Positions 54,378 through 63,783 of a stretch of DNA of 64,000 nt are shown piece after piece. The stretch covers positions 744,001 through 808,000 of the forward strand of contig NZ_JANTPT010000001.1 in NCBI RefSeq assembly GCF_024753565.1. Reading direction: 5' to 3'. The position numbers were made by a program, and so were the translations under genes. The notes under the pieces were generated by a model. That model made no database searches. It saw nothing but the letters and a program-made list of their open reading frames with translations, and had not been told where the DNA came from. Position 1 is the stretch's first letter. Each line of letters starts with the position of its first letter. Source of the stretch: Mechercharimyces sp. CAU 1602 (GTDB lineage Bacteria; Bacillota; Bacilli; Thermoactinomycetales; JANTPT01).

Positions 54378-55238
54378 ATGCCACAGACAGGGAATATCAT
54401 CGATGGAAAAGGAATGGCGGCACAAATTCGAAGCGAACTGAAGGCTACTGTACAAACTCTTTCCCACCAGGGAACTATGCCCGGCCTAGCCGTGGTGTTA
54501 GTAGGAGAGGATCCAGCCTCCCAATTATACGTACGAGGAAAAATCCGTGCTTGTGAGGAGGTAGGTATCTACTCTGAGCAGATTTATCTCACAAGTGATG
54601 TTTTAGAAGAAGAGGTGCTAGCGGTCATAGATCGTCTTAATGATGATCAGAAGATTCATGGGATATTGGTACAATTGCCTCTGCCTGTCCAAATAGATCC
54701 AGATCGTATTATTGAACGGATTGATCCCGCTAAAGATGTAGACGGCTTCCATCCACAAAATATGGGACGGCTCGTGATTGGGCAACATGGTTTCCTACCT
54801 TGTACGCCTCATGGCATTATGGAAATGTTGAAACGAAGTGATATCTCCATTACTGGAAAACATGTGGTCGTTGTGGGAAGAAGTAATATCGTTGGAAAAC
54901 CGATTTCCTTCTTGTTGCAACGAGAACATGCAACTGTGACGATGTGTCATTCGCGCACGCGGGAATTAGCGCACTATACAAAGCAGGCAGATATACTTAT
55001 AGCCGCAGCTGGAAAGGCACATCTATTGGGTAGAGATCACATTTCGCCGAATACCGTTGTGATAGATGTCGGTATGAACCGTTTACAGGGAAGAAAAGTG
55101 GTTGGGGATGTTGATTTTGAAGCCGTTCGAGAGCTTGCTTCTCACATTACTCCTGTACCAGGAGGAGTGGGCCCCATGACGATCGCCATGTTGTTATATA
55201 ATACTGTAGAAGCGGCAAAACAGAGATGTAAAGAGTAA
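54378..55238 (+). CDS. folD: methylenetetrahydrofolate dehydrogenase/cyclohydrolase
   Basis: A 286-residue bifunctional enzyme interconverting 5,10-methylene-THF and 10-formyl-THF with NADP. Signatures: VLVGEDPASQLYVRGKIRACEEVGI with the catalytic Lys, LVQLPLPVQID, KDVDGFHPQNMGRL, and GRSNIVGKPISFLLQ for the dinucleotide. ATG 54378 is chosen; GAGAGGAG is about eleven bases upstream and an earlier ATG has no ribosome site. It begins the folD-xseA-xseB-ispA cluster. Confidence 0.94.
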   Translation: MPQTGNIIDGKGMAAQIRSELKATVQTLSHQGTMPGLAVVLVGEDPASQLYVRGKIRACEEVGIYSEQIYLTSDVLEEEVLAVIDRLNDDQKIHGILVQLPLPVQIDPDRIIERIDPAKDVDGFHPQNMGRLVIGQHGFLPCTPHGIMEMLKRSDISITGKHVVVVGRSNIVGKPISFLLQREHATVTMCHSRTRELAHYTKQADILIAAAGKAHLLGRDHISPNTVVIDVGMNRLQGRKVVGDVDFEAVRELASHITPVPGGVGPMTIAMLLYNTVEAAKQRCKE

Positions 55239-55258
55239 AACATACGTATGTTAGTTTG

Positions 55259-56653
55259 ATGAGTGACGATGAGAGGAGGGAACCAAAGATCGATATGCTA
55301 ACGGAGGAACGTCAAACTTTTTCGGTTTCTGAGCTGATGCAATATATGCGTGATCATTTGGAGAAAGATGGCGTGCTCAGTCGGATATGGGTACAAGCTG
55401 AAATCTCTAATTTTCGGCACCATGAGCGCGGCCACATGTATTTTACACTTAAAGATCACACGACACAAATAAAGGCAGTCATGTTTCATGGCAATAATCG
55501 CCGTCTTCGTTTTCGTCCGAAAGATGGTGATCAGGTACTGGTGCGTGGGTATATATCGGTGTATGAACGAGGAGGTACGGTTCAGCTATATGTACAATAT
55601 ATGCAACCAGATGGAATTGGAGATTTATATTTAGCATTTCAACGTTTAAAAGAACAATTGCAAGCTGAAGGATTATTTGCTGATGAGCTAAAAAAACCCC
55701 TCCCCCATTTGCCGCGGCGGGTAGGGGTGGTTACAGCCGCAGGGGGGGCAGCTATCCGTGATATCGTGTCAACTATGCAGCGGCGTGCGCCCATGGTGCC
55801 TCTGTTGATCCGCTCGGTTCCTGTACAGGGTGAAGGGGCAGCTGAAGAGATTGCGACCGCGATCGATGAGTTGGGAACTCGTTCGGATCTGGATGTGTTA
55901 ATCGTTGGTCGGGGGGGCGGATCTTTAGAAGAGTTATGGGCGTTTAATCGGGAGGAAGTGGCGCGTAGTATCGTCCGCTCTCCCCTGCCTATCGTTTCTG
56001 CTGTTGGGCATGAGTCAGATGTTACGATTGCTGACTTTGTAGCCGATGTGCGAGCGGCTACTCCCACGGCGGCAGCAGAACTGGTTGTTCCTTCGTTAAC
56101 TGAAGTGCAAGAACAGCTGATCAGTCAGCAAAAACGCCTCTGGTATGCATTACAGCAGAGGATAAAGCAAGAAGGGAAACGGCAGGAATGGCTATCTAAT
56201 CGCCTTTGGCAAACCAGTCCCACTGTGCGTTTAAAGCAGTGGGAGCAGAGGTTAGATATAGCGATGAGTTCATTGCACCGATCTATGGGTACGTATCTAG
56301 AACAAAAACAACGGGTGATGGATAGGCTTCACCTTCGTTTATATGCCCAACGAGCAGGAATAGATGGCACTGCGGCACGTGATGAACTTTCTCGTCTTCA
56401 ACAGCGCCTTTCGCAAGCGATGATAGAAAATGTGAAAGTGCGTAGGGTAAACAGAAATCACCTTTTAAAGCGTTTAGATGATTTAAGCCCTCTTAAGGTG
56501 ATGCAAAGAGGATATGCTCTTATAAGTGATGAAGAAGGAACTCCGCTACGTTCGGTAAATCAGGTGAAGCTGCAGGAGAAAGTGATTGTTCGGATGATAG
56601 ATGGGACCATTATGGCATCGGTGATAGCGAAAGGGGAAGATAGCAGTGAGTAA
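55259..56653 (+). CDS. xseA: exodeoxyribonuclease VII large subunit
   Basis: A 464-residue XseA. An OB-fold (SRIWVQAEISNFRHHERGHMYFTLKD) is followed by the catalytic domain (RRVGVVTAAGGAAIRDIVSTMQRRAP; DVLIVGRGGGSLEELWAFN; VSAVGHESDVTIADFVADVRAATPTAAAE) and a long coiled coil (290-400). It degrades single-stranded DNA with XseB. The start is not certain: ATG 55259 is near the folD stop but has no ribosome site, while ATG 55295 has AGGAGGG fourteen bases upstream. It overlaps xseB by 8 bases. Confidence 0.93.
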   Translation: MSDDERREPKIDMLTEERQTFSVSELMQYMRDHLEKDGVLSRIWVQAEISNFRHHERGHMYFTLKDHTTQIKAVMFHGNNRRLRFRPKDGDQVLVRGYISVYERGGTVQLYVQYMQPDGIGDLYLAFQRLKEQLQAEGLFADELKKPLPHLPRRVGVVTAAGGAAIRDIVSTMQRRAPMVPLLIRSVPVQGEGAAEEIATAIDELGTRSDLDVLIVGRGGGSLEELWAFNREEVARSIVRSPLPIVSAVGHESDVTIADFVADVRAATPTAAAELVVPSLTEVQEQLISQQKRLWYALQQRIKQEGKRQEWLSNRLWQTSPTVRLKQWEQRLDIAMSSLHRSMGTYLEQKQRVMDRLHLRLYAQRAGIDGTAARDELSRLQQRLSQAMIENVKVRRVNRNHLLKRLDDLSPLKVMQRGYALISDEEGTPLRSVNQVKLQEKVIVRMIDGTIMASVIAKGEDSSE

Positions 56654-56891
56654 ACCAACGACTGATTTTGAAAGTTTGATGACGCGTCTGGAGCAAGTGG
56701 TGGAAGAGATGGAACGCGGAGAAATCTCATTAGAAGAGGCAGTCGAGCTGTTCGAAGAAGGGACAAGATTAGCAAAGAAGTGTGAAGAGAAATTGGTGCG
56801 AGTAGAGGAGAAAGTGGCAATTTTGATGAAGAAAGATCATGAATGGACCGAAACGCCATTCCAATTGGAGGGGGACGCAGAGTCATTGTGA
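56646..56891 (+). CDS. xseB: exodeoxyribonuclease VII small subunit
   Basis: An 81-residue helical protein with the XseB pattern FESLMTRLEQVVEEMERGEISLEEAVELFEEG and KKCEEKLVRVEEKVAIL. It forms a coiled-coil complex with XseA. GTG start, with GGGGAAG seven bases upstream, inside the xseA end. The stop overlaps the ispA start (GTGA). Confidence 0.93.
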   Translation: MSKPTTDFESLMTRLEQVVEEMERGEISLEEAVELFEEGTRLAKKCEEKLVRVEEKVAILMKKDHEWTETPFQLEGDAESL

Positions 56892-57784
56892 ACGATTTTA
56901 AATTATATTTAAAAGAAAAAGAAGAGGTTGTTCATCGCGCTTTAGAAGAGAGTGTGGCGCAGTGGTGTGATATTCCCGACTCTCTTAAAGAAGCGATGGC
57001 ATATTCGCTGTTAGGTGGAGGGAAACGCCTTCGTCCGATACTCGTGTTGCTAGCATGCGAAGCTCTAGGGGGAGAAGAGAAAGAGGCATTGCCATTTGCG
57101 TGTGTGGTCGAGATGATACATACCTACTCCCTCATTCACGACGATTTACCTGCGATGGATGACGATGATGTGCGTCGTGGACGCCCTACCAATCACAAGG
57201 TATATGGAGAGTGGATGGCGATTTTGGCAGGGGATGCACTGTTGACAAAGGCATTTGGCCAGTTTGCATCGGCTAGTAGAGCATCGTCACTCGCTCCTGA
57301 GGTGGCGTTAGAGTTAATTGAAAAGATGTCCGTATCTGTGGGAGCAGAAGGGATGGTTGCAGGTCAAGTAAGAGACATACAGAGTGAAAATAAAGAGATT
57401 ACGCTATCTGAATTGGAGACGATCCATCATCGTAAAACAGGTGATCTTATCTCCTTTTCTGTTTGTTTAGGAGCACAGTTAGCAGGAGCGAATAAATCCC
57501 AGCTGTACGCATTGAAAGAGTATGCTGTTCGCATCGGACTTGCATTTCAAATCCAAGACGATATACTTGATGTCATTGGAGATCAAGAGAAAATCGGCAA
57601 GCCGGTAGGTAGCGATGAAGCGAAACATAAGTCGACTGTTACTGGTTTGATGGGTCTGGAACAGGCACGCATCTGGATGGAACGATTAGCGCGGGAAGCG
57701 AAAACAGCACTACAAAATGAACCTTCTATTAAAGCGACGCCGCTGTTGCAATTGGTTGATTACCTGATGCAACGGGATCGTTAG
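56888..57784 (+). CDS. ispA: farnesyl/geranyl diphosphate synthase
   Basis: A 298-residue trans-isoprenyl diphosphate synthase making farnesyl-PP from IPP and DMAPP/GPP. Both aspartate-rich motifs are present: HDDLPAMDDDDVRRGR (first) and FQIQDDILDVIGD (second), along with GGGKRLRPILV. I start at GTG 56888, which overlaps the xseB stop, since the longer frame enters xseB. It is followed by the OLE RNA gene, the usual place for OLE within isoprenoid operons. Confidence 0.93.
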   Translation: MNDFKLYLKEKEEVVHRALEESVAQWCDIPDSLKEAMAYSLLGGGKRLRPILVLLACEALGGEEKEALPFACVVEMIHTYSLIHDDLPAMDDDDVRRGRPTNHKVYGEWMAILAGDALLTKAFGQFASASRASSLAPEVALELIEKMSVSVGAEGMVAGQVRDIQSENKEITLSELETIHHRKTGDLISFSVCLGAQLAGANKSQLYALKEYAVRIGLAFQIQDDILDVIGDQEKIGKPVGSDEAKHKSTVTGLMGLEQARIWMERLAREAKTALQNEPSIKATPLLQLVDYLMQRDR

Positions 57785-57821
57785 AAAAAGACGAATGGTT
57801 GAGGTCTCGTAAGGACTTTCA

Positions 57822-57850
57822 TTGTGATGCTATACGCCCTGTGATATAAT
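57822..57850 (+). promoter_or_regulatory. promoter of OLE RNA
   Basis: TTGTGA (57822-57827), a 17-bp spacer and an extended -10 TGATATAAT (TATAAT at 57845-57850). The predicted start, about seven bases downstream, coincides with the first base of the closing stem at 57857. Confidence 0.7.
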
Positions 57851-57856
57851 CGAACC

Positions 57857-58443
57857 AATATGGGGTGGCGCAGTATTCTAGTCGGTCCCTATCTTCTGAA
57901 GGCGGGCCTAAAAATCCGCTAAAGGGCACATCGATGAAGTTCTTGGTGTTGGCTTTCGACGCCCAGTCGGGGGTTGATGCTGGGAGTTAAGGAAAAAGGG
58001 CGATCCACAAGGGCATGTGGGCGTTTGACCCGTTTTCCGTGGAGGCCCAAGTGCGTTAATACTCGTCACCGTACGGGGTTAATGGCTTGGGGGAAGAACC
58101 TGCTAATCAGGGCAAGAATTGCTCTTGTTGCAGCGTAGCCTGCCTTGCGTGGTGCAATGGGGAAGGGTGGCAAGTTGGCACCCAGAAAGTTGTACTGCAA
58201 AAGAGGCTAGGAAGATGTGAGGGCTGCCCGAGGAAAACTCCTAGACTGTTTGCTTCTATGATGGGCAAGGCTACTGAGGGATTGAAGTGCGGACTAAGTG
58301 GTAATCCAGTCTGGTGTGTGGTGACTGCACCAAGAAGAGTTATAAAGGGAAACCGCCTGATTGGCAACGATCGGGATACTTTTTTGGGAAATCCTACTGG
58401 ACCTAAGCCGCAGGATTTACCTACGTAGTCGCCACCCCGTATT
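57857..58443 (+). ncRNA. ole: OLE RNA (ornate large extremophilic RNA)
   Basis: A 587-base region with no credible protein gene, between ispA and the OapA-like membrane protein and before dxs. This is exactly the locus where OLE RNA is found in extremophilic Firmicutes. The ends pair in a 14-bp stem with one G-U pair (57857-57870 with 58430-58443; cores GGGGTGGCG and CGCCACCCC). The length is close to the roughly 600 bases known for OLE. OLE forms a membrane-bound ribonucleoprotein with OapA and has been linked to growth under alcohol, cold and magnesium stress in Alkalihalobacillus (Bacillus) halodurans. The identification rests on position, length and terminal stem; I did not align the whole consensus. 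Confidence 0.85.
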
Positions 58444-58521
58444 CGGCGTGCGAATATTCTGTAAAAATATTGTAGCACATTCATCTTCCCACAATAGGGA
58501 GAGGGAGAATGAGATAAATCC

Positions 58522-59145
58522 ATGGGAGAAACGTTTCGACGGTCGATTGGTTGGGCTGTGGGGATTGCACTGGTCACTGCTTTGATTGCCATGGTGTTAT
58601 CTATATTATCGACAAACATCCTGCAAAGCTTACCGTGGAACGGTGGCCTGTTGGTTGTTTTTGTGATTGTGATTATTGGTGTCGCTTTTGATATGCTGGG
58701 CTTAGCTGCAGCGGCGGCTAGAGAAATTCCTTTTCATTCGATGGCGTCGCGGAAAATTGCGGGTGCTAGACATGCGATCGGGGTAATTCGCAAAGCAGAT
58801 AAGTTCGCTACGTTTTGTAATGACGTTGTAGGCGATATTAGTGGGATCATCAGTGGTGCTGCTGGTGCTGCAGTTGTAGTTGCGTTAGTAAATGATTATG
58901 ATGGATTAAGTAGTCGCTGGTTTTTAGAAGTAGGGATGGTATCAGTCTTATCCGCCTTTACAGTAGGTGGAAAGGCATTGGGTAAAGCTTATTCCATTCG
59001 ATATGCCAATGAAATTATCTTTCGAGTCGGCAAGTTTTTATATATACTAGAGAAGAAATTTCATATTCGCCTGTTTGATGTACAACCTAAAAAGAAGAAA
59101 AGAAAGCGAAAGCGAGGCGTTCTTCGTGAACCTCGAACAGATTGA
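58522..59145 (+). CDS. oapA: OLE-associated membrane protein OapA
   Basis: A 207-residue protein with four hydrophobic segments (about 11-34, 42-66, 104-123 and 136-150), a conserved-looking [15 protein letters not shown] stretch at 101-115 with two Asp residues, and a strongly basic end ([17 protein letters not shown]) that suits RNA contact. Length, topology and the place between OLE RNA and dxs match OapA, which anchors OLE RNA to the membrane. ATG 58522 is preceded by GAGAGGGAGAATGAG. The last 20 bases overlap dxs. Confidence 0.85.
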
Positions 59146-61018
59146 TTCACCCGAGAAATTAAAACAAATACCGGTGGAAGAACTTCCTCGGATAGCAGAA
59201 GAGATAAGGCAGTTTTTAATTGAGAGCTTGTCAGGTACTGGAGGGCATCTCGCCTCTAATTTAGGTGTAGTAGAACTTACGCTCGTACTACACTATTTAT
59301 TTGATAGTCCCAAAGATAAATTTTTGTGGGATGTCGGTCACCAAGCTTATGTTCATAAGATCTTGACAGGACGTAAATCCATGTTTCCCACCCTGCGCAA
59401 GTATGAGGGGTTATGTGGCTTTCCTAAAATGAGGGAGAGTGAACATGATTGTTGGGAGACTGGTCATAGTTCTACCTCCCTGTCTGGTGCGATGGGGATG
59501 GCTGTGGCACGTGATATTAAAGGTGAGAATAATAAAGTTGTTGCAGTGATCGGAGACGGTGCCCTAACCGGTGGAATGGCATTGGAAGCATTAAACCATA
59601 TCGGTACGGAACAGCGAGATCTGATGGTTATTCTTAATGACAATGAGATGTCTATTACGGATAACGTAGGTGCACTGCATAACTATTTAGGACGTTTACG
59701 TACGCATAAGCATTATCACAAGGTAAAAGAAGATATTGAGAACATGCTCTTGAAAATCCCTTCCGTGGGAGAGCCGTTAGCTAAAACCCTGGAGCGCATA
59801 AAAGATAGTCTGAAATATTTAGTTGTTTCTGGTGTTCTCTTTGAAAAGTTTGGTTTTACCTACTTGGGGCCTGTCGATGGACACAAAATTGGGGAATTGA
59901 TGGAGTGTGTCCGTCAAGGAGCCAAAACAAAAGGGCCTGTCTTAATTCATGTGATCACCAAGAAAGGAAAAGGGTACGAGCCTGCTGAAAATGATGCGAT
60001 CGCCTATCATGGTGTGGGTGCAGGTAAGTGGGAGACCGTAGCTGAAAAACAAATTGTGAAGAAGAGCCCGCCCAAATACGCAAAGGTATATGGGAATACT
60101 TTGATTCGTTTGGCGGAGCAAGATCCTAAGGTTGTTTCGATTACACCTGCTATGTTACAAGGATCAGGGCTCATCGAATTTGATCAGCGTTTTCCAGAGC
60201 GTTCTTTTGATGTGGGGATTGCAGAACAGCATGCAACCACCTATGCAGCCGGATTAGCAACACAGGGGTTGACTCCTTTTCTAGCGATATATTCGACTTT
60301 TTTGCAGCGCTCTTACGACCAGCTTATCCATGATATTGCACGGCAAAATTTAAATGTGGTTATTGCAGTAGACCGTGCAGGCTTTGTAGGTGAAGATGGC
60401 GAGACGCATCAAGGGGTATATGATATAGCCTTCATGCGTTGTATTCCTAACATGACCATCATGATGCCAAAAGACGAAAATGAATTTCAACACATGCTAT
60501 ACTCCGCCTCACGTTATAATGTGGGTCCGATAGCAGTTCGCTTTCCACGTGGTGCAGGTTTGGGTGTCCCGATGGATGAGCAGTTGCAAGATATTCCATT
60601 GGGTAAAGCAGAAGTCGTGCGTACAGGTACAGATGTTGCTCTATTAGCACTAGGTCCGATGGTTGACCGTGCCAATGCGGCAGCGGACTACTTGGCTCAG
60701 GAAGGGATATCTGCACAGGTCGTAAATGTCCGGTTTGTAAAACCACTGGACGAGGAGCTTCTTCAAGATCTTTACCAACGCCAGCTCCCGATCGTAACCA
60801 TTGAAGAAGGATCGAGGATGGGTGGTTTGGGAAGTGCTGTGATGGAGCATTACGAGACAGAAGGGCAACATAATATGATGGTTAAAGTAATGGGTGTTCC
60901 AGATTATTATGTGGAACATGGTAGTGTAGAGGAACAACTGCAAGAAGTGGGATTGACCGCGGAAAAGATCGCTGATGCGGTGCGCGCTATTATGCCGAGC
61001 AAACGGCAGCGGGCGTAA
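59126..61018 (+). CDS. dxs: 1-deoxy-D-xylulose-5-phosphate synthase
   Basis: A 630-residue thiamine-diphosphate enzyme joining pyruvate and glyceraldehyde 3-phosphate at the start of the MEP isoprenoid pathway. [14 protein letters not shown] (catalytic His), [15 protein letters not shown] with the NDN partner (TPP/Mg), [26 protein letters not shown] (catalytic Glu) and the transketolase C domain are all present. GTG 59126 has GAGG eight bases upstream; the open frame before it lies in oapA. Translation is thus coupled to the OLE protein. Confidence 0.93.
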
Positions 61019-61061
61019 TATCCTCAGTTCATGTTTGTCGTACCAGTAAAGAGGGATCAAT

Positions 61062-61877
61062 GTGGCCAAAGAAAGATTAGATGTTATTTTAGTCAATCAG
61101 GGATTGTTTGAAAGTCGCGAACAAGCTAAGCGGGCCATTATGGCAGGCATTGTTTTTGTGGAGCAAGAACGAGTAGATAAACCTGGAACGAAAATCTCTA
61201 CAGATGCGACTGTAACCGTTACAGAGCGCTTACACCCTTATGTCAGCCGCGGTGGCTTAAAGTTAGAGGGGTCGATTAAGCGTTTCCAGTTGGATTTACA
61301 AGGGCGCATTGTTATTGATATCGGTGCATCGACAGGTGGATTTACCGATTGTGCGCTGCAAAATGGAGCCTTATCGGTTTATGCGATTGATGTAGGCTAC
61401 GGTCAGTTGGCATGGAAACTGCGTCAACATCCACAGGTGATTGTGATGGAGCGAACGAACTTTCGTCATATGAAGCCAGAGGATCTACAAGGACCTACTC
61501 CGAACTTTGCTACGATTGACGTATCGTTCATCTCTTTATCACATATTCTTCCCCCGTTATACCGTATGTTGCAGGCGGATGGGGAAGTGGTGGCGTTAAT
61601 CAAACCCCAGTTTGAGGCGGGAAGAGATGCTGTAGGCAAAAAAGGGATTGTTAGGGATCCGGCAACCCACCGGGATGTGCTGACCAAAGTTACACGGATG
61701 GCAATGGAGATTGGATATGACGTTTTGGGACTAGCTCCCTCCCCCATTCGAGGTGGGGAAGGAAATGTTGAATTTCTGGCATACTTAAAAAAGGGGTTAG
61801 CACCTACAGGTGAGGCCCCACTGTTGTCCCATTGGATTGAGCAGGTAATCTTAGAGGCCCACGAGGGAAAAGAGTAA
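61062..61877 (+). CDS. tlyA: TlyA-family rRNA methyltransferase
   Basis: A 271-residue protein with an N-terminal S4 RNA-binding domain (ERLDVILVNQGLFESREQAKRAIMAG) and a FtsJ-like methyltransferase domain with SAM motif VIDIGASTGGFTDCALQNGA and the catalytic K-D-K-E pattern (KPQFEAG). It likely 2'-O-methylates ribosomal RNA, as TlyA does in Mycobacterium. GTG start, with GAGGG upstream. Position between dxs and argR is as in Bacillus (yqxC). Confidence 0.92.
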   Translation: MAKERLDVILVNQGLFESREQAKRAIMAGIVFVEQERVDKPGTKISTDATVTVTERLHPYVSRGGLKLEGSIKRFQLDLQGRIVIDIGASTGGFTDCALQNGALSVYAIDVGYGQLAWKLRQHPQVIVMERTNFRHMKPEDLQGPTPNFATIDVSFISLSHILPPLYRMLQADGEVVALIKPQFEAGRDAVGKKGIVRDPATHRDVLTKVTRMAMEIGYDVLGLAPSPIRGGEGNVEFLAYLKKGLAPTGEAPLLSHWIEQVILEAHEGKE

Positions 61878-61934
61878 GGACAGAGGATTTTTTCGTACGA
61901 TCTGCGAATCAATAGGAAAAGGAGGGTTTCCATC

Positions 61935-62450
61935 ATGTTACATTCAGGAGACTTGGTATTCCTTTTCCTGTTGATGATCGGTGTGATCTACTTTATGATT
62001 ACGTATGTTTTCCGTTCCCCTTCCCCATACGGTACAGTGAAGGATGAGGAGATCACTGGTCCTGTTCCTAAGTGGCTAAATGAAGAAGGATACACCGTGA
62101 TTGCGGAAAAGGAGCGTACGCCAGTTTGGATACAGATCGGCGATGACACCTTTGAAAGTCGATTGTATACTGATTATTTGGCTACACGCTCAAACCAACT
62201 TTATGTTGTAGTAGTTGCCAAGAGACGGAAGCCTCTTCGTTATACGGGGGCCGCCTTGCGGGATTATTTTTTACCTCATTATCTGGCATACAAACCAGCA
62301 GGAATTTTATATCTGGATATGGAAAAACAGCAGATCGAGGAAATTCGTTTCACTGTGGAGGTTGGTTATACTCCATCCCCACGGCGCACATGGGTCAAAT
62401 ACTTAGTTGCGATGGGAGTGGGGGCGTGTTTAGTCATCCTTTTGCAATAA
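61935..62450 (+). CDS. hypothetical membrane protein between tlyA and nadK
   Basis: A 171-residue protein with one hydrophobic helix at each end (LVFLFLLMIGVIYFMITYVF; YLVAMGVGACLVILLQ) and a soluble middle (GDDTFESRLYTDYLATRSNQLYVVVVAKRRKPL) of mixed alpha/beta type, perhaps a nuclease-like or beta-rich fold. I do not recognise a family. ATG follows AAAAGGAGGG. It lies in line with the essential genes around it, so it is probably cotranscribed with them. Confidence 0.65.
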   Translation: MLHSGDLVFLFLLMIGVIYFMITYVFRSPSPYGTVKDEEITGPVPKWLNEEGYTVIAEKERTPVWIQIGDDTFESRLYTDYLATRSNQLYVVVVAKRRKPLRYTGAALRDYFLPHYLAYKPAGILYLDMEKQQIEEIRFTVEVGYTPSPRRTWVKYLVAMGVGACLVILLQ

Positions 62451-62461
62451 TTGAGGTGTAG

Positions 62462-63334
62462 ATGGTGACAAAAAGGATCGGAATTATAGCGAACAAAGAG
62501 AAACCAAAAGCAGAGAGTGTAACCAAAGAACTGGTCTTATTGCTAGAAGAACGCGGAAGCGATGTGCTAGTTGATCCCATCATGGCTGAAAGAATTGATC
62601 GCCCTGAGCTTGGAATTGAACTGGAGCACTTCCCAAGCAGAGTGGATATGTTATTTGTATTAGGTGGGGATGGGACTTTACTGGGAATTGCTCGTCAATT
62701 TGCGGCGCATGACCTCCCATTGTTAGGATTTAACTTGGGACATTTGGGTTTTTTATCGGAAGCAGAACCTGAAGATCTCGCATGTGCGATTGATCGTGTG
62801 TTAGCGAAGGATTATATATTGGAAGAGCGGATGATGTTAGATGCTGAAGTGATCCGTGGCGGCATTCCTTTGGAAAAGAGCATCTCGCTTAATGAAGTGG
62901 GAATTGCGAACTCATTTAGTCGCATGATTACAACCAAAGTTTATATGGACAATGCTTATCTGGGAACGTATTCTGGCGATGGAATAATTGTATCCTCCCC
63001 GACAGGATCGACAGCCTACTCGCTGTCTTGTGGTGGGCCGATCGTGTGGCCTAGTGTACAAACGTTGCTGTTAACTCCAATCTGTCCTCATACATTGACG
63101 GCACGCCCAATGGTCTTACCTGCTGATGCCACCATTGAGATAGTAGTGAGTGCATCTCACGAGGACATCGGCTTAACTATCGACGGACAGTTGGGAATCC
63201 GTTTGCAGATCGATGATGTTATCCGTATTCGCCAATCATCTTACCGTACAACACTGGTGAAATGGAGAGAACGTTCATTCTTTGAAGTAGTGAGGAAAAA
63301 ACTGCATGGAGAACTGCTGGAGGATATAAGATGA
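62462..63334 (+). CDS. nadK: NAD kinase
   Basis: A 290-residue enzyme phosphorylating NAD to NADP. The GGDGT motif ([15 protein letters not shown]) and the [18 protein letters not shown] segment are complete, and [15 protein letters not shown] is typical. The start is ATG 62462, or GTG 62465 one codon later. It overlaps argR by ATGA, giving a tight nadK-argR-recN set as in Bacillus. Confidence 0.93.
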
Positions 63335-63783
63335 AAACGAAAACACAGAGACATATTCGCATCAGGGAGATTATTACATCTAAAAACATAGAAACACAGG
63401 AAGAGTTAGTAGAAGAACTACAGCAATCAGGCTACAATGTGACACAAGCGACTGTCTCTCGTGATATCAAGGAGTTACGCTTGGTTAAAGTAGCGACTGA
63501 TTTTGGACGATATATGTATTCGTTACCAGCAGATAAACGCTTTAACCCAATGCAAAAGCTGAAACGCATGTTAAAGGAGTCGTTTGTTGGAGTGGAAACA
63601 AGCGAAAACTTGTTGGTGATGAAGACATTACCGGGTAATGCTAATGCGATCGGTGCGCTCATCGACAGCTTGGATTGGACGGAAATCATCGGCACTATCG
63701 CGGGTGATGATACCATTTTGATCATTTGTCGTGAGCGCGAACAGGTTCCTCATCTGGTTAGTCGCTTTATCGATATGTTGTAG
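63331..63783 (+). CDS. argR: arginine repressor
   Basis: A 150-residue ArgR/AhrC. The N-terminal winged helix ([35 protein letters not shown]) binds ARG boxes, and the C-terminal domain ([45 protein letters not shown]) binds arginine and makes the hexamer. The GTIAGDDT motif carries the arginine-binding Asp pair. It starts within the nadK stop. Confidence 0.95.

Follow-up and report, generated by a model that had tools for sequence, protein, structure and literature searches.

An intact OLE RNA gene with a predicted promoter of its own between ispA and dxs in Mechercharimyces sp. CAU 1602, and a lineage-specific overlap of oapA with dxs

We describe a gene for OLE RNA followed by oapA, the gene of OLE-associated protein A, in a 64,000-nucleotide stretch of DNA from Mechercharimyces sp. 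CAU 1602 (hereafter the window). We are highly confident in the overall explanation, in which an intact OLE gene and oapA lie between ispA and dxs, with a private promoter, read-through from upstream, an RNA sealed at its ends, a membrane particle containing that RNA, and probable coupling of dxs to oapA. The window copy is an intact further case of a known RNA class, in a known place and with a known kind of promoter. What the comparison with other loci adds is the generality of the promoter and of the stem that closes the RNA, together with an overlap between oapA and dxs that is specific to one lineage. To our knowledge, OLE ranks among the largest structured RNAs of bacteria that still lack an established biochemical role.

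The original prediction had read OLE RNA from the nucleotide sequence, and a covariance-model search agrees with it. An Rfam scan of positions 55000-62000 aligned RF01071 to 57849-58451 on the forward strand over the whole model (1-616 of 616), with 451.6 bits and an E-value of 2.6e-130, where the gathering score of the family is 50 bits. This was the sole match above threshold in the scanned region and the sole RF01071 match in the genome. The RNA itself likely extends from 57857 to 58443, which amounts to 587 bases, the length given at the outset. Its predicted fold is more stable than that of all 100 shuffled sequences (z -3.98). Two open reading frames, of 113 amino acids on the forward strand and 170 amino acids on the reverse strand, overlap OLE and are probably fortuitous, lying as they do within a conserved RNA.

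The surrounding genes, all on the forward strand, are arranged as first described, with ispA upstream, then ole, oapA and dxs, which is a known neighbourhood of OLE. The farnesyl diphosphate synthase gene ispA occupies 56843-57784 (NF045485, E 1e-116 from residue 24; PF00348, E 1.9e-60), with some uncertainty about its start codon. It is separated from oapA by 737 bases (57785-58521), which hold the OLE gene. The oapA frame (58522-59145) begins 71 bases past the end of the OLE match and encodes 207 amino acids with a tail of lysines and arginines, and dxs, encoding DXP synthase, follows at 59126-61018 (TIGR00204, E 9e-268; start placed by alignment projection). Further downstream lies argR (63331-63783; PF01316 and PF02863). 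In the available part of the literature, oapA is given as the commonest immediate downstream neighbour of ole (PMC12265935), and dxs is said often to adjoin ole and oapA, with argR often nearby (PMC10898510). The OLE locus of Halalkalibacterium halodurans, as the accessible text of two reports describes it, shares with the window an oapA directly downstream, an adjoining dxs, a nearby argR and a promoter of its own (PMC9723947, PMC10898510).

For comparison we assembled 92 OLE loci. The set is not random: it contains all 30 over-cut-off matches of an order sample, 25 further loci that are the best-scoring of 85 over the cut-off in a class sample, the best 30 of 284 over the cut-off in a phylum sample, and seven named loci. 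The score of the window copy is the lowest among the 30 over-cut-off relatives of its order, and also among the 85 genomes above the cut-off in the class sample, as might be expected of a gene in decay. We considered this explanation and rejected it as scarcely credible. Among 215 near-invariant columns, defined as those at least 97% conserved among the 88 other loci in an alignment of 89 OLE sequences, the window OLE keeps 213 and deviates at only two, 58184 and 58227, whereas six other OLE loci break three or four such columns. The phylum sample also contains OLE matches weaker than that of the window, and a full-length model match, an open oapA frame and the presence of the partner genes all speak against decay. 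Since those six other loci break more of the conserved columns, we read the window OLE as divergent rather than decayed. It matches RF01071, the RNA family studied in H. halodurans, along the full model in both sequence and structure, and the changes behind its low rank among the sampled order and class would fall in variable helices.

Direct reading of the two ends of the RNA gives the 14-bp closing stem that had been proposed, in which 57857-57870 (AATATGGGGTGGCG) pairs with 58430-58443 (CGCCACCCCGTATT) with a single T-G wobble (57861 with 58439). Because the Rfam structure line leaves both ends of OLE unpaired, the terminal stem was tested separately. This was done in 89 of the 92 loci, the same set that served for the conserved columns (L062, L066 and L069 were dropped). 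The stem was found in the same register in 86 of the 89 loci, and all of positions 2-8 are paired in 83 of the 89; the register was picked to maximise pairing, which somewhat favours the real pairing, but 86 of 89 still fall at the same offset. Over 66 distinct rows, the mean was 9.23 pairs out of 10, compared to 7.71 when the 3' strands were swapped between loci, with a maximum of 8.06 in 500 swaps. Both sides of the stem change. At position 9, for instance, we counted 19 G-C, 16 C-G, 11 A-T and 7 T-A pairs, while at the innermost position G-T or a lack of pairing is frequent. In the aligned sequences, therefore, the OLE end stem covaries across the 89 loci, although the RF01071 structure line has no pairs there. 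Published drawings of OLE probably already include this end stem. Relative to the OLE RNA studied in H. halodurans, a difference in the window is a 14-bp end stem that begins at the expected start site of transcription. Such a stem would seal an RNA of approximately 590 nucleotides, which would be either cut from the downstream message or ended before it; a processing step for OLE, itself presumed, is on record for H. halodurans only.

The putative ole promoter (57822-57850) consists of TTGTGA at 57822-57827, a 17-bp spacer, and an extended -10 element with TG at 57842-57843 and TATAAT at 57845-57850, for a total of 10 out of 12 consensus bases plus the TG. Transcription would be expected to start 7 bases past the -10 box, at 57857, where the closing stem begins. 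We picture initiation at a sigma-A-type extended -10 promoter, recognised by comparison between loci. RF01071 model position 1 falls within the -10 box (57849, with an overlap of 57849-57850), so that the first columns of the model partly describe promoter DNA and not RNA.

Taken by itself, this site is at chance level. The region 56800-59400 contains four promoter-like sites, compared to 3.9 in shuffled sequences, although the ole site is the best of the four; the exact motif TGNTATAAT occurs four times in the window, where 2.9 are expected and 31 of 100 shuffles reach four. What makes the promoter significant is that other OLE loci have it in a conserved position. An exact TGNTATAAT was found within 150 bases in 74 of the 82 loci that could be scanned (out of 85; L021, L066 and L069 had no anchor), compared to 0.77 on average, and never more than 4, over 200 shuffling rounds. 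In a second scan, restricted to the 75 bases ahead of the RNA core and covering 90 of the 92 loci (L066 and L069 were dropped at contig ends), the exact extended -10 was again present in 74 loci, compared to 0.87 in shuffles. Allowing up to one mismatch raised the count to 85 of 90, compared to 6.3, but many OLE loci are close kin and these promoter counts do not represent independent events. The place of the site is also constrained, as 62 of the 85 lie 20-27 bases ahead of the conserved core. The six Alkalibacillus loci carry TGnTAAAAT, with one mismatch, while Ornithinibacillus halophilus has the exact site. Five of the 90 loci (L011, L070, L071, L081 and L092) have no extended -10 within 75 bases, even with one mismatch.

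In its available part, one source reports that ole of Bacillus halodurans lies inside a large operon and yet has its own promoter too (PMC9723947, citing Ko and Altman 2007). The conservation described above suggests that the sampled OLE loci carry, as a rule, a promoter at the very start of the RNA, and that this is not peculiar to one species. The OLE literature that we searched, in the portions available and outside the primary papers of 2006, 2007, 2011 and 2012, carries no statement on promoter conservation across loci. The claim that the window OLE has its own promoter, starting transcription at the first stem base, thus holds for the site and for its conservation in 85 of 90 loci; the significance of the single site derives from that comparison, and the start base is the one predicted by spacing.

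Two groups of loci stand apart in these scans. In L068, L073 and L076-L080 the extended -10 is found 50-51 bases before the conserved core, compared to the usual 20-27, which would leave these RNAs with an extended 5' leader not included in the end stem. In L011 and L081, the 150-base scan returned exact sites 94 and 115 bases away, which are probably not the promoter.

A private promoter does not imply isolation from the upstream gene. We detected no terminator-like site in the window between ispA and ole, nor between ole and oapA. In a stricter scan of 82 loci, no terminator was found in the fixed 110-base stretch before the RNA, which covers the wider gaps only in part; after the RNA, terminators were found in 8 out of 80 loci, seven of which belong to one related family. 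According to the text available from PMC12265935, the H. halodurans cluster is transcribed as one polycistronic RNA, and this, together with the lack of a terminator, leads us to expect read-through. The original prediction that OLE dosage is set apart from ispA is thus supported only in part: the private promoter argues for independent initiation, but with no terminator between the two genes, transcription from the ispA side would probably be added to that of the private promoter and not replaced by it. The ole promoter of the window may also serve oapA and dxs.

The same observations could be taken to mean that OLE arises solely when a long message spanning ispA, ole, oapA and dxs is processed, with RNase P or another nuclease as a candidate enzyme, and that the extended -10 is a chance match in AT-rich DNA. 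This would fit with the polycistronic transcript of H. halodurans (PMC12265935), with the listing of OLE RNA among RNase P substrates in the accessible part of PMC4919922, with the absence of a terminator between ispA and ole, and with the chance level of a single extended -10 site. It would leave unexplained the recurrence of the extended -10 at a fixed place across the sampled loci, far above its frequency in shuffles, as well as the private promoter that the available text of PMC9723947 reports for H. halodurans. We therefore consider processing as the only source of OLE very unlikely, and retain a private promoter supplemented by read-through.

As a side observation, OLE and oapA are separated in seven loci (L024, L028, L029, L031, L032, L033 and L036) by a conserved hairpin, CCGGTC...GACCGG, with a T run after it. 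This terminator-like element is found in seven of the nine over-cut-off loci of one related family, and the window is without it.

The protein encoded downstream of ole was identified as OapA, in accordance with the original prediction, through its relatives. In tblastn searches, these adjoin OLE in 83 of the 85 loci of the order, class and phylum samples (the window's own included) and in all seven further named loci; the H. halodurans protein was outside this comparison. The window OapA has no Pfam or NCBIfam match at 0.001. Against Pfam CNNM it reaches 16.6 bits (E 0.0067), below the Pfam cut-off of 28.4. An alignment of 31 of the 82 usable oapA frames contains 12 invariant columns, and 23 of these 31 members match CNNM at E-values up to 1, with a best value of 3.1e-6. 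The protein has in common with the OapA of known OLE loci its place beside ole, the invariant columns and the weak relation to CNNM, the last of which is also described in the available part of PMC11332333; it differs in that, in the window's order, its basic tail shares DNA with the start of dxs. The matches of those 23 members to CNNM are also the feature shared with the MpfA/CNNM magnesium exporters, but the window OapA, with its 207 residues, is too short to hold the CBS and CorC domains that MpfA is described as having. Among solved structures, a profile of the 31 OapA sequences retrieved nothing relevant, with one match at E 0.49. The structure model, predicted from the window protein together with five of the seven named relatives, has four helices but a pLDDT of 40.6, and is too poor to use. 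In the earlier description of a four-helix protein with a basic tail, the tail is plain in the sequence (KKKKRKRKR), while the four helices, at this pLDDT, are no more than tentatively predicted.

In two loci, L009 and L027, dxs comes directly after OLE, with no oapA match in the flank (OLE from 1501, dxs near 2315 and 2258, respectively). A homologue of OapA is nevertheless encoded at another site in each of the two genomes (E 2.1e-54 and 8.6e-54), which indicates that ole and oapA can be unlinked.

The start of dxs is most likely a GTG at 59126, in which case the gene overlaps the end of oapA by 20 bases (59126-59145), consistent with the overlap first noticed. A probable Shine-Dalgarno sequence for dxs, AAGCGAGG, can be read directly at 59110-59117, inside the codons of the basic tail of oapA. 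We could measure the spacing between oapA and dxs in 74 of the 85 loci (two had no adjacent oapA and nine no dxs in the flank). Within the order, 22 of the 23 loci, including the window's own, show an overlap: it is exactly 20 bases in 18 of them, 37 in two and 29 in two, and the remaining locus has a 3-base gap. Among the 51 loci from outside the order, an overlap is present in just 17 and missing in 34; in the six Alkalibacillus loci, for example, oapA and dxs are roughly 30-55 bases apart by eye. The embedded Shine-Dalgarno is conserved, with variants, in the 21 loci that have the 20-base overlap. In these loci, the arginine codon at the embedded site is CGA in 16 of 21 cases, compared to 79 of 243 elsewhere in oapA (P-value 1.6e-4, Fisher test, uncorrected for kinship). 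This preference suggests selection on the embedded Shine-Dalgarno.

These features resemble those of overlapping, translationally coupled gene pairs in bacterial operons, which share the stop/start overlap with an embedded Shine-Dalgarno. The proposal that dxs output is tied to OapA translation fits with the overlap and with the conservation of the embedded site within the order, and ribosomes finishing oapA would probably help the translation of dxs. Given the scarcity of overlaps elsewhere (17 of 51), coupling is plausible as a lineage-specific trait and not as a general feature of OLE loci. Mere genome compaction, with dxs translated from its own ribosome site independently of oapA, is quite possible as well, if somewhat short of probable: the Shine-Dalgarno is good and mostly unpaired, and two thirds of the loci outside the order (34 of 51) manage without overlap. 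It accounts less readily for the constancy of the overlap, at 20 bases in 18 of the 23 loci of the order, which a shared ancestor could also explain. In the local fold at the dxs start, the start codon is mostly paired (0.13-0.20 open), with bases 59114-59116 of the Shine-Dalgarno mostly open (0.86), which is compatible with coupling but does not require it. An exact-site scan of the 23 same-order loci returned no extended -10 between oapA and the dxs start. In the available portions of the OLE literature searched, outside the primary papers of 2006, 2007, 2011 and 2012, the oapA-dxs overlap is not mentioned.

A further and rather unlikely scenario can be drawn for the window's order, in which the ole promoter would act as a stress-responsive entry for a transcript of ole, oapA and dxs together, and translation of OapA would be relayed to dxs through the fixed overlap. 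Whenever OLE is induced, the enzyme that opens isoprenoid precursor synthesis would then rise in step with the OLE particle, and there would be a direct genetic link from OLE to the supply of membrane lipids. The lineage with the oapA-dxs overlap is a natural place for asking whether OLE is wired to isoprenoid synthesis.

Finally, we searched the genome for the other OLE-associated proteins, as had been proposed, and found homologues of OapB, OapC and bS21. OapB is encoded by a frame of 96 amino acids (L102:4761-5051), whose best PDB match is 7k9b, 'OLE-associated protein B' (E 4.8e-24). Pfam KOW failed to pick it out in the genome, and the protein has no Pfam match at 0.001; it was located through the interval between map and infA, which we take to be the place of OapB, and the frames that flank it resemble, by eye, map and infA. 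The OapC/YbxF homologue has its best match in 4lck (E 1.2e-27), and the bS21 homologue was detected with an E-value of 2.7e-22. By homology, OLE RNA would form a membrane-bound particle with OapA, OapB, OapC and probably bS21, and this particle would aid adaptation to stress. The frame that follows the bS21 gene (L100) resembles YqeY by eye; in the accessible text of PMC12054373, YqeY is named as a candidate partner of OLE that often shares an operon with bS21. The genome contains one CNNM-family match, which belongs to a separate, MpfA-like frame of 453 amino acids (L101; match at G000:C1:197589-198176, reverse strand). A single match agrees with the statement, in the part of PMC11332333 available to us, that species with OLE tend to carry at most one MpfA. 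This frame adjoins another that resembles, by eye, the magnesium transporter MgtE.
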